From assembly GCA_002898555.1 (NCBI GenBank), contig BEHR01000034.1:1-34579 (forward strand): DNA of 34,579 bases. Reading direction: 5' to 3'. The stretch's first letter is position 1, and each line of letters opens with the position of its first letter. Below the pieces are notes generated by a model. That model searched no databases and was not told the origin of the DNA. It saw nothing but the letters and a program-made list of their open reading frames with translations. Position numbers and translations under genes: made by a program. Source of the stretch: a bacterium HR15 (GTDB lineage Bacteria > Armatimonadota > Fimbriimonadia > Fimbriimonadales > GBS-DC). Positions 3,270 through 34,462 of this stretch are shown here, piece after piece.

Positions 3270-3424
3270 ATGGCGAGTCGCGAGTGGCGGGTAGGGGCAG
3301 ACCCCTGTGTCTGCCCGCAACTGATAGGGGCAGACTCCTGTGTCTGCCCGCAACTGATAGGGGCAGACCCCTGTGTCTGCCCGCAACTGATAGGGGCAAA
3401 CCCCTGTATCTGCCCCTACCCGTG
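3270..3424. repeat. Heptamer remnant plus 33-bp tandem repeat array
   Basis: Directly after the flgI stop come about three degenerate TGGCRAR heptamers (3270-3290), then four copies of a 33-bp unit beginning AGGGGCAGACCCCTGTGTCT at 3293, 3326, 3359 and 3392; the last copy diverges at its end. Each unit contains a small hairpin, GGGCAGAC/GTCTGCCC with a 4-nt loop (ACCCCTGT region). A fifth unit lies inside flgJ at 3706-3738. The period is exactly 11 codons, so the array stays open in frame. There are no unique spacers, so this is not a CRISPR array. Confidence 0.85.
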
Positions 3425-3442: not shown

Positions 3443-3781
3443 ATGAAGACACTTCAGCCCGTGAGGTCACCTGTTCCATCAGCGAACCCCATCAATGGGG
3501 TTCACGCTGAAGATGAGCGGTTGCGCGAAGCCTGTCAGCAGTTCGAAGCCGTCTTTCTGCTGCAGCTCTGGCGGGCGATGCAGCGCACCGTTCCTCAACA
3601 GCGCCAAACCCTCAACTATGCGGAGATGTTCGACCTGACCTTTGCCGAATATCTGGCACGGTACGGACAGTTTGGCATCGCTGAAAAGCTCTATGAGCAA
3701 CTGATAGGGGCAGACCCCTGTGTCTGCCCACAACTGACGGCGGGGCTACCCGCCGAGCCGAATAGGGATGAAATGCCATGA
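3443..3781 (+). CDS. flgJ: Rod-binding protein FlgJ, N-terminal domain only
   Basis: A 112-residue protein matching the rod-binding (FlgJ N-terminal) domain, which helps assemble the flagellar rod in the periplasm. The family core is LREACQQFEAVFLLQLWRAMQRTVP, then YAEMFDLTFAEYLARYGQFGIAEKLYEQL. The muramidase domain of proteobacterial FlgJ is absent, as in many phyla that use a separate hydrolase. The ATG at 3443 has AGGAAGAG just upstream; longer in-frame starts run into the tandem repeat array. The C-terminus is odd: after EQLI the frame enters a copy of the 33-bp repeat (3706-3738, encoding GADPCVCPQLT) and then a GGCTACCCGCCGAGCC motif before stopping, so the last ~23 residues are repeat-derived. 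The stop overlaps the next start (ATGA at 3778). Confidence 0.88.
   Translation: MKTLQPVRSPVPSANPINGVHAEDERLREACQQFEAVFLLQLWRAMQRTVPQQRQTLNYAEMFDLTFAEYLARYGQFGIAEKLYEQLIGADPCVCPQLTAGLPAEPNRDEMP
3706..3738. repeat. 33-bp repeat unit inside flgJ
   Basis: One unit, nearly identical to the array at 3293-3424, lies in frame at the end of flgJ and encodes GADPCVCPQLT. It joins the gene at CAACTGAT, which is also the 3' end of the array unit. Confidence 0.85.
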
Positions 3782-10986: not shown

Positions 10987-13352
<2,366 letters not shown>

Positions 13353-17162: not shown

Positions 17163-17212
17163 CCAAAATTTTCTTTTTCGACCCAATCGGGTACCCCAGA
17201 GAAAAAAATTGG
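17163..17212. repeat. Degenerate PAL palindrome
   Basis: CCAAAATTTTCTTTTTCG (17163-17180), then GGGTACCCCAGAGAAAAAAA and TTGG. This is the same architecture as the other PAL copies, but the arms pair imperfectly. It abuts the 3' end of the IS1595-type element. Confidence 0.7.
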
Positions 17213-17224
17213 TGATTCGTCCAT

Positions 17225-18079
17225 CTATTCCACCTTTAGGAGCCTCAAAAGCAAGTCATAAAGATCCTCTTCCCAGTGATTGTAGCGGAACTCCAGCTCC
17301 TTCAAAGAGTACGAAAACCACGGGGGCGAAAGTCCATGAGACGGCATAAGTCGCTCCTTCGCATAACTCCAGAACCCTTCGATCCCATCGAGGTAAACCC
17401 TCCCATTCCGAAAACGCTTCCCATCATCAATCCGCTCGTGGCGAAATCCATACATCACCAGACTATCATACCCTCTGAAGTGATCCGTATACACCAGGCT
17501 CCCCCGCTTCACCCTCCAGATCGCCTCCCCCAGCAGGGTTTCTGCTTTCACATCCCTCACGACATCCACCTCGACTTTCCCGCCCCGCTCCAGAATCCCA
17601 AACACCGCAATCTTCCCCTATGCCCCTCTCCCCCGCTTCCTCTTCCTTCGCCCCACAAAATAACTCTCATCCATTACGATCTCCCCCCACAGAAGATCAT
17701 CCCGCGCCGCTTCTCTCGCCATCCCCTCCCATAACCGCATGTCCAGGCGCCTTACCGTCTTGTACGCAAGCCCCAGCTCCTTCGCCGCACGCAGCCCCGG
17801 AACCTCCAGTTCAAACATCTTCAGAGCCAGCAAACAGGGCCCAAACTTCACTTCTGACCGCTCCAGCACGCTCCCTCTCCTCATCCCCCACTCCCGCTTG
17901 CACGCAGAGCACTTGTACGACTTCTTCCGCGCACGCTTGACCTGGTCGCTGCCACAATACGGACACAGGCGAAAGCTCTTGAGAATGCCCTTCTCGCGGA
18001 GAAACGCTTCCGCCTCCTTTTCCTCGCAGCAATCTTGCTCAATCGTACCAAATCCATCGTCTTCCTCCTCGCATGTCAT
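17225..18079 (-). pseudogene. IS1595-family transposase interrupted by an amber codon
   Basis: Reading right to left, an N-terminal zinc ribbon (LCPYCGSDQVKRARKKSYKCSACKREWGMRRGSVLE) is followed by a helical segment and the DDE domain: MDESYFVGRRKRKRG with the first Asp, VYTDHFRGYDSL with the second, and GIEGFWSYAKERLMPSHG with the final acidic residue, ending KELEFRYNHWEEDLYDLLLRLL. This is the ISXO2/IS1595 layout. A single TAG at 17618-17620 splits the frame after KRGRGA; the downstream part continues in the same frame (GKIAVFGILERGGKVEVDVV), so it is a nonsense mutation, not a frameshift. The start is ATG 18079, or TTG 18106. TCGTCCATC (17217-17225) and GATGGACGA (18158-18166) form a short inverted match that might belong to the ends, but the element boundaries are unclear. 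Confidence 0.85.
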
Positions 18080-18106
18080 GATACAGTGATGGAACCGTTT
18101 AATCAA

Positions 18107-19694: not shown

Positions 19695-19822
19695 TGAAAT
19701 TTTTTCTCTGGGGTACTCCAAAATTTTCTTTTCCGGGGTACCCTGCTGGGTCGGAAAAGAAAATTTTGCCGTCTGGGTCAGAGAAAAAATTGTGCATCTG
19801 GGTCAGAGAAGACAATTTCAAA
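19695..19822. repeat. Composite PAL repeat cluster
   Basis: CTGAAATTTTTTCTCTGGGG (19694-19713) is followed by a perfect 17-bp palindrome, CAAAATTTTCTTTTCCG (19719-19735) with CGGAAAAGAAAATTTTG (19752-19768), then two GGGTCAGAGAA half-units. It is a near match in order and content to the cluster at 1-115. The remaining stretch up to 19987 shows no gene. Confidence 0.85.
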
Positions 19823-31032: not shown

Positions 31033-31105
31033 ACGGGTAGGGGCAGATCGATGTGCAAAAATTTCTTTTCTGACCCAGTGGGGTAGCCCGGAGAAGAAAA
31101 TTTTG
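31033..31105. repeat. 33-bp repeat fragment joined to a PAL palindrome
   Basis: ACGGGTAGGGGCAGATCGAT (31033-31052) matches the start of the 33-bp unit, and is followed by CAAAAATTTCTTTTCTGACC (31056-31075) and CCCGGAGAAGAAAATTTTG (31087-31105) arms of a PAL element with the GTGGGGTAG loop. Two repeat families are therefore fused here. Confidence 0.75.
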
Positions 31106-31183: not shown

Positions 31184-31213
31184 TTGACTTTTTCGCATGC
31201 GATTGGTTATAAT
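31184..31213 (+). promoter_or_regulatory. Strong sigma-70 promoter of the str operon
   Basis: TTGACT (31184-31189), an 18-nt spacer and TATAAT (31208-31213). Predicted start about 31220, giving a leader of roughly 230 nt before rpsL. Confidence 0.88.
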
Positions 31214-31275
31214 ATAGGGCACAGGACATACGCCTGAGCTGGGCAGGCGTGTGTCGGGAGGTTCATGAGAAAACG

Positions 31276-31359
31276 ATGAACCGAACCGTGCATTGTGCGA
31301 ACGCACATAGGGCTTTGTGGAGGCGAGGACACCGCCTGCGGTGTCCGAAACCCGGCTGA
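31276..31359 (+). CDS. Possible 27-residue leader peptide of the rpsL operon
   Basis: A short frame encodes MNRTVHCANAHRALWRRGHR, then LRCPKPG, with six arginines. It overlaps (ATGA) a four-codon frame, MRKR (31265-31279), that lies just after GGGAGG (31256-31261). Translation would cover the GTGGAGG antiterminator arm. There is no homology support; it may be chance. Confidence 0.25.
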   Translation: MNRTVHCANAHRALWRRGHRLRCPKPG

Positions 31360-31386
31360 ATGCGCCTAAGAGCGTGTTGCCGAGGC

Positions 31387-31419
31387 AGCCCCTCCACCCT
31401 GTGTGTGAGGGGCTTTTTT
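31387..31419 (+). terminator. Intrinsic terminator in the rpsL leader
   Basis: AGCCCCTC (31387-31394) pairs perfectly with GAGGGGCT (31407-31414) around a 12-nt loop and is followed by TTTTTT (31414-31419). It lies 30 nt upstream of rpsL and downstream of its promoter, so it must be bypassed or regulated. Confidence 0.85.
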
Positions 31420-31449
31420 ATCCGCCCCGTAGAACAGGAGGCAAAGCGG

Positions 31450-31860
31450 ATGCCAACGATTAACCAGTTGATACGCAAGGGTCGAAAACCGAAGATACGC
31501 AAAACGAAGTCGCCTGCGCTGCAGGGCTGTCCGCAGCGGCGGGGTGTCTGCACCATCGTGCGCACCATGACGCCCAAAAAGCCGAACTCCGCCCTGCGCA
31601 AGGTGGCGCGCGTGCGACTGACCAACGGCATCGAGATCACCGCGTACATCCCGGGCATCGGGCACAATCTGCAGGAACACTCGGTGGTGCTGGTGCGCGG
31701 CGGGCGTGTCAAAGACCTGCCAGGCGTGCGCTACCATATCATTCGCGGCGCGCTCGACTGCGCCGGCGTCGAAGTTCAACCGACCACGCGCAATCAAGAT
31801 CGGCGCATGCAAGGGCGCTCCAAATACGGCTCCAAACGCCCCAAGCCCACCAAAAAGTAA
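31450..31860 (+). CDS. rpsL: 30S ribosomal protein S12
   Basis: S12 (136 residues) sits at the decoding centre of the 30S subunit. [55 protein letters not shown], the [34 protein letters not shown] block and a basic C-terminal tail ([16 protein letters not shown]) are complete. In the [10 protein letters not shown] loop the lysines whose change commonly gives streptomycin resistance are wild type. ATG 31450 has GGAGGCAAAG (31438-31443) at about 7 nt. The frame is open further upstream to 31360, but that would run through the terminator. First gene of the str operon. Confidence 0.98.
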
Positions 31861-31867
31861 GAGGTGA

Positions 31868-32347
<480 letters not shown>

Positions 32348-32365
32348 CAAGGAGGCTCAGACAAG

Positions 32366-34462
<2,097 letters not shown>

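Follow-up and report, generated by a model that had tools for sequence, protein, structure and literature searches.

Attenuators in rpsL leaders reportedly go back to work by Merino and Yanofsky, which is said to be earlier than that of Naville and Gautheret. In 2010, Naville and Gautheret described rpsL attenuators in Listeria, Xanthomonas, Pseudomonas, Rickettsia, and streptococci, and their account of these leaders gives no sequence or structure that is common to them (PMC2965389). In E. coli, control of this operon by ribosomal protein S7 acts in the gap between rpsL and rpsG. Such control is unstudied in most phyla, and little work exists on regulation of the S12-S7-EF-G operon beyond enterobacteria (PMC10931766). 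Neither uS12 nor uS7 leaders are mentioned in a survey of 20 new ribosomal protein leaders (PMC7247131).

The window, meaning the whole stretch of 34,579 nucleotides analyzed here, carries in order a promoter, a leader of ~230 nt, an intrinsic terminator (positions 31387 to 31419), and the genes rpsL-rpsG-fusA (31450 to 34462). The features of this region are collected in Table 1. The original prediction had called the promoter near consensus, and the same TTGACT-18-TATAAT element (31184 to 31213) is kept in 13/13 close leaders, although a promoter of this quality is not significant alone (one such site in 2 kb, versus 0.7 expected). The leader DNA has no second copy in its own genome besides the one in front of rpsL. 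When the window and the leader were compared with Rfam 15, no family reached its gathering score (the best match, 13.8 bits, was to unrelated sRNA models), and none of the Rfam ribosomal protein leader families matches the rpsL leader. The view that the leader belongs to no described RNA class holds for Rfam families, but attenuators of this general kind in front of rpsL had been described in other phyla by Naville and Gautheret (PMC2965389).

Table 1. Features of the rpsL leader and its operon, in window coordinates
Feature	Position	Strand	Remarks
Sigma-70 type promoter, TTGACT-18-TATAAT	31184..31213	+	Conserved in 13 leaders; predicted start ~31220
5′ hairpin P1	31225..31255	+	31225-31236 pairs with 31244-31255; relatives have a 5′ hairpin of different sequence here
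Shine-Dalgarno-like GGAGG of leader ORF	31257..31261	+	Same in all 13 leaders; ATG 12-14 nt away
Hairpin GGTTCAT/ATGAACC, holds leader ORF start codon	31260..31282	+	Pairing kept in 98.9% of cells; G-U the only type of change
Leader ORF, 27 codons, MNRTVHCANAHRALWRRGHRLRCPKPG	31276..31359	+	Stop TGA at 31357-31359; conserved in family
Hairpin P3	31294..31307	+	3′ arm overlaps antiterminator strand; competing structure
Antiterminator 5′ strand, CGCACATAGGG-cuuug-TGGAGG	31302..31323	+	Codons 9-16 of leader ORF
Hairpin P4, GGACACCG/CGGTGTCC	31327..31346	+	Inside leader ORF; compensatory changes in relatives
Hairpin P5	31351..31384	+	Between ORF end and terminator; predicted fold
Intrinsic terminator	31387..31419	+	Stem 31387-31414, then T-run; conserved in family
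Antiterminator 3′ strand (terminator 5′ arm and loop), CCTCCACCCTGTGTGTG	31391..31407	+	Other orders share a GTGTG-type loop motif
rpsL ribosome-binding region, self-pairing ATCCGC..GCGGAT	31420..31449	+	Sequence; relatives L003-L014 have a similar short hairpin, ACGCTCC..GGAGGCGT
rpsL (S12)	31450..31860	+	Pfam PF00164
rpsG (S7)	31874..32347	+	Pfam PF00177
fusA (EF-G)	32366..34462	+	Pfam PF00009, PF03764

Several other elements of the window were noted. One copy of a ~48-bp palindromic, MITE-like dispersed repeat sits just upstream of the rpsL promoter (31057 to 31104). Further copies lie at 43 to 90 and 19720 to 19767, and degenerate ones at 12511 to 12549 and 17165 to 17212; its ends carry GAGAAGAAAATTTT in inverted orientation (16 hits versus 1.5 expected). 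On the minus strand at 17225 to 18106, an IS1595-type transposase with a DDE domain (PF12762) and a weak zinc ribbon (PF12760) is split over two frames and is apparently a broken insertion sequence. Amid flagellar genes, a near-perfect 33-nt tandem repeat, TAGGGGCAGACCCCTGTGTCTGCCCGCAACTGA, is located at 3292 to 3423, with an extra copy near 3705 (3704 to 3737).

The leader is predicted to fold far more stably than expected by chance, with an energy of -104.4 kcal/mol compared to -82.3 ± 4.5 for dinucleotide shuffles (z = -4.87; 0/200). The predicted fold has five hairpins upstream of the terminator, and not the three originally proposed. The terminator, formed by AGCCCCTCCACCCTGTGTGTGAGGGGCT and a T-run, has a predicted fold of -18.3 kcal/mol and was found in all 15 of the family leaders examined, which agrees with its original assignment to these positions. 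A simple scan of the window did not include 31387 to 31419 among its listed sites. Two additional pairings were considered. A pseudoknot between the P1 loop (31238 to 31244) and positions 31351 to 31357, noticed by visual inspection of the window alone, was dropped because the P1 sequence is not conserved, and a long-range pairing proposed by RNAalifold between the 5′ end and the region past the terminator is absent from the window sequence. Furthermore, the short hairpin that can close the rpsL ribosome-binding site in the window and in L003 to L014 is possibly a second, translational layer of control.

The antiterminator is predicted to pair nucleotides 31302 to 31312 with 31397 to 31407 and nucleotides 31318 to 31323 with 31391 to 31396, which yields 17 bp with a 5-nt bulge. 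The 7-nt pairing that was first recognized (31317 to 31323 with 31391 to 31397; GTGGAGG/CCTCCAC) is exact but is merely part of this longer structure. When folding of the nascent RNA was simulated, the antiterminator had a probability of 0.82 to 0.98 for RNAs ending at 31400 to 31412, and the terminator reached 0.96 from 31416 onward. Equilibrium predictions for the whole leader give -91.2 kcal/mol for the antiterminator state and -95.0 kcal/mol for the terminator state, and the predicted gap between the two switch states is only ~4 kcal/mol with the terminator arm out. Near-balanced energies of this kind, as modeled, are what would be expected of a switch. P3 competes with the antiterminator for the same strand, which gives the usual three-way arrangement.

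Given that a short ORF covers the antiterminator 5′ strand, the reading that we favor, and consider reasonably probable, is that the rpsL-rpsG-fusA leader works by transcription attenuation and that its switch responds to the translation of a leader peptide. During transcription, nucleotides 31302 to 31323 would pair with the first half of the terminator (31391 to 31407) and keep it open. If this strand were occupied or outcompeted, the terminator stem (31387 to 31414) would form and transcription would stop before rpsL. A ribosome elongating over approximately codons 6 to 21 would mask the strand and lead to termination. A ribosome that is absent or held at the first codons would leave the strand free and permit read-through, and in the latter position it would also open the competing hairpin P3. 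The operon would be turned down by ribosomes that traverse, or are delayed on, the central part of the basic peptide's frame, such that abundant translation or slow decoding of basic codons would lessen ribosomal protein synthesis.

These expectations were modeled by barring a ribosome footprint of ~30 nt from pairing. With the ribosome at codons 2 to 4, the antiterminator is favored by 2.1 to 2.8 kcal/mol, and with the ribosome at codons 6 to 21, the terminator is favored by 4 to 18 kcal/mol or the strand is wholly blocked. A ribosome near the stop codon mildly favors the terminator. Ribosome movement on a short leader frame was among the inputs originally suggested, and the location of a conserved ORF (31276 to 31359) that overlaps the antiterminator makes it the likeliest input in the family. 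Translation of the ORF, the role of the ribosome footprint as the input, and the direction of control are, however, inferences. The ORF may be translated weakly or under regulation of its own, because its ATG is held in a stable hairpin and is a long way (12 to 14 nt) from the Shine-Dalgarno sequence. In most relatives the leader peptide is basic and rich in Arg and Lys, as exemplified by MNRTLYERGFARGTRHTKRRRKRRCESA in L007. The peptide of the window, which starts with MNRT, has diverged (6 Arg in 27 residues) and is without the KRRRKRR run, and therefore a conserved stalling sequence is not evident.

The 13 close leaders, the window included, share the promoter, Shine-Dalgarno sequence, start-codon hairpin, ORF, P4 hairpin, and terminator. 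Duplex prediction finds an antiterminator of 14 to 20 bp in 15/15 family leaders. Among the 13 closest leaders, 12 have energies between -26.7 and -33.2 kcal/mol, and the relative L014 has a weak antiterminator (-15.2). The sequences that form it differ: CGCACAUAGGG..UGGAGG in the window, GCACGCGGG..GAGGC in most leaders, and CACGCAGG..AGAGG in L010. Among seven divergent family members, own pairs beat swapped pairs (exact permutation p = 0.0018). The upper helix has a covariation score of 0.198 versus 0.154 ± 0.015 for shuffles, 4/500 of which did as well, and three of its pairs are changed on both sides. The original prediction had asked for rpsL leaders of relatives to be gathered, and the comparison of their antiterminators and terminators lends strong support to its claim that the two are mutually exclusive. 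Both structures exist, are conserved, and covary.

The same question was addressed across the order with a set of 102 leaders, of which 95 with a terminator were analyzed and 7 without a usable terminator were set aside. Where automatic detection failed, some terminators were placed by visual inspection. A leader tested singly against its shuffles gives a weak result, since GC-rich sequence pairs by chance, and a cross-genome permutation was used instead. For 80 non-redundant leaders of the order, the antiterminator strand prefers its own terminator (z = -8.1, p ≤ 5e-5; median rank of the own terminator, 18 of 80), and the preference is also seen without the family (z = -6.6). This strand is purine rich, has the consensus AGGAGGC, and is mostly located ~40 to 70 nt upstream of the terminator. 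Of 40 genomes from other orders of the phylum, 35 have a terminator; pairing with the own terminator is likewise preferred (z = -5.2, n = 32), and the GTGTG loop motif occurs in 18/35 terminators. The rpsL leaders of several other orders also have a conserved central domain. In one of these orders, seven leaders (L196, L199, L211, L217, L220, L223, and L229) share a central domain of the form GCGATTAGCACACCTT..CTCGT..GGGAACAA..AAGGTGGACTAACGCCC, which is a candidate protein-binding RNA.

Outside the family, no excess of ORFs that cover the antiterminator strand was found, either in the rest of the order (19/80 versus 23.8 expected) or in the other orders of the phylum (10/35 versus 12.5 expected). 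Since the phylum-wide core exists without the ORF, the original input was probably something else, with translation added later. A ribosomal protein is a rival candidate for the input: S7, S12, or a complex might bind the folded leader and shift it from antiterminator to terminator, as in the B. subtilis L20 and L10(L12)4 leaders, with the family ORF being secondary. We regard this explanation as possible but somewhat unlikely. S7 and S12 were among the ligands first suggested, together with the idea that control may have moved to the leader from the rpsL-rpsG gap. A protein ligand would account for a core in which the ORF is missing but a purine-rich element is conserved, along with a central domain in several orders. 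Moreover, switching among terminator, antiterminator, and anti-antiterminator is known in B. subtilis L10(L12)4 (PMC10931766), and rpsL attenuators of other phyla are thought, in the account of Naville and Gautheret, to answer S7 or another ribosomal protein (PMC2965389). An E. coli-type S7 site, which is an extended structured region between rpsL and rpsG, is absent; as originally noted, this gap is short, measuring 13 nt in the window and 10 to 18 nt in those other members of the family that allowed it to be read. However, sequence resemblance between the leader and the 16S rRNA of the same genome is at the chance level (score 19 versus 20.8 ± 2.2 for shuffles, with none above chance), although the leader may yet mimic the rRNA in structure, and a protein ligand leaves a frame-preserving ORF unexplained.

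It is improbable, in our estimation, that this ORF is simply a by-product of hairpin constraints in a GC-rich RNA and that the attenuator, although real, is uncoupled from translation. The ORF overlaps P3 and P4, whose structure could mimic some codon conservation, and its start codon is sequestered. It is recognizably homologous only among the 13 closest leaders, and a search with the leader peptide through 113 genomes of the order gave matches in family leaders only; L015 and L016, which are the most distant members of the family, have non-homologous ORFs that could be due to chance. Despite these points, the ORF varies in the manner of a coding sequence. The ATG at 31276 is invariant in 13/13 close leaders, and the frame has 27 to 29 codons (84, 87, or 90 nt) and ends 25 to 31 nt before the terminator. 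Its indels are multiples of three whereas the adjoining noncoding stretches vary freely, and one relative has TAA in place of the TGA stop. Substitutions are distributed over the codon positions as 150:187:307, with the third favored. Changed codons have a mean BLOSUM score of +1.54 versus 0.17 ± 0.51 for column shuffles (p = 0.005), in a simple test whose null ignores RNA structure. Finally, an ORF that lies over the antiterminator strand and ends before the terminator is present in 15/15 family leaders, compared to 4.9 expected from shuffling. The leader ORF thus bears a coding signature at the sequence level and overlaps the antiterminator strand. Outside the family, three related leaders (L027, L028, and L039) have AGGAGG followed 8 nt on by TTG and a 6-codon frame ending in TAA (MGIGTG-like), which is a possible mini-ORF.

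Leader terminators can be fixed attenuators, and leader transcripts could act in trans. Nevertheless, it is very improbable that this terminator, which is favored in the full-length fold, is just a constitutive brake or marks where a separate small RNA ends, with no regulation by alternative pairing, because the antiterminator covaries across the phylum and the energies are closely balanced.

A broader and decidedly speculative extension is a ribosome-sensing attenuator found throughout the phylum, in which a free 30S subunit would bind the Shine-Dalgarno-like strand and cause termination, and a translating ribosome would do the same in the family. The AGGAGG (or AGGGGG) antiterminator strand, which usually has no start codon, could bind the 16S anti-Shine-Dalgarno sequence of a free 30S subunit, and this sequence is present in the 16S rRNA of this genome. 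AGGAGG occurs in 37/80 leaders of the order outside the family versus 3.7 expected. The longer AGGAGGC is found in 27/80, whereas AGGGGC, which is a better complement to the terminator, is found in 1. We rejected the possibility that, in leaders outside the family, AGGAGG simply serves a leader ORF as its ribosome-binding site, since start codons are under-represented (4 to 12 nt past GGAGG in 9/52, versus a background of 31%).

As an attenuator coupled to leader-peptide translation, the rpsL leader resembles the trp, his, and ilv leader-peptide attenuators. A short ORF, a competing hairpin, an antiterminator, and a terminator follow one another in the same order, the position of a ribosome can choose the structure, and a conserved in-frame short ORF overlaps the switch. 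Unlike in those systems, the operon is ribosomal, there are no repeated codons for an amino acid that its products synthesize, and the predicted sign is reversed because termination is favored when a ribosome is midway along the ORF. Without a codon run tied to the operon product, we do not file the rpsL leader under leader-peptide attenuators. The B. subtilis L10(L12)4 and L20 leaders likewise place ribosomal protein operons under terminator/antiterminator switching, but they have a known protein ligand and no leader ORF. The E. coli S7 autoregulatory site controls the same operon, but does so at the level of translation from between rpsL and rpsG, a gap of only 13 nt here.

The nearest relatives are the rpsL attenuators, which have a premature terminator and a putative antiterminator between the promoter and rpsL, ahead of rpsL-rpsG-fusA-tuf (PMC2965389). 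The present leader likewise has an intrinsic terminator between promoter and rpsL and an alternative antiterminator. In the account of Naville and Gautheret, the rpsL attenuators have no shared feature and no leader ORF is reported (PMC2965389). In contrast, the purine-rich antiterminator strand and the terminator-loop motif recur here throughout a phylum as a covarying switch, and one family has a conserved ORF over it. A vague attenuator thereby becomes a design open to testing: translating a tiny ORF would set ribosomal protein synthesis, so that the activity of ribosomes might feed back directly on their production. Thus, rpsL attenuators are known as a kind, and what is new is the conserved ORF that carries the antiterminator 5′ strand in this family.
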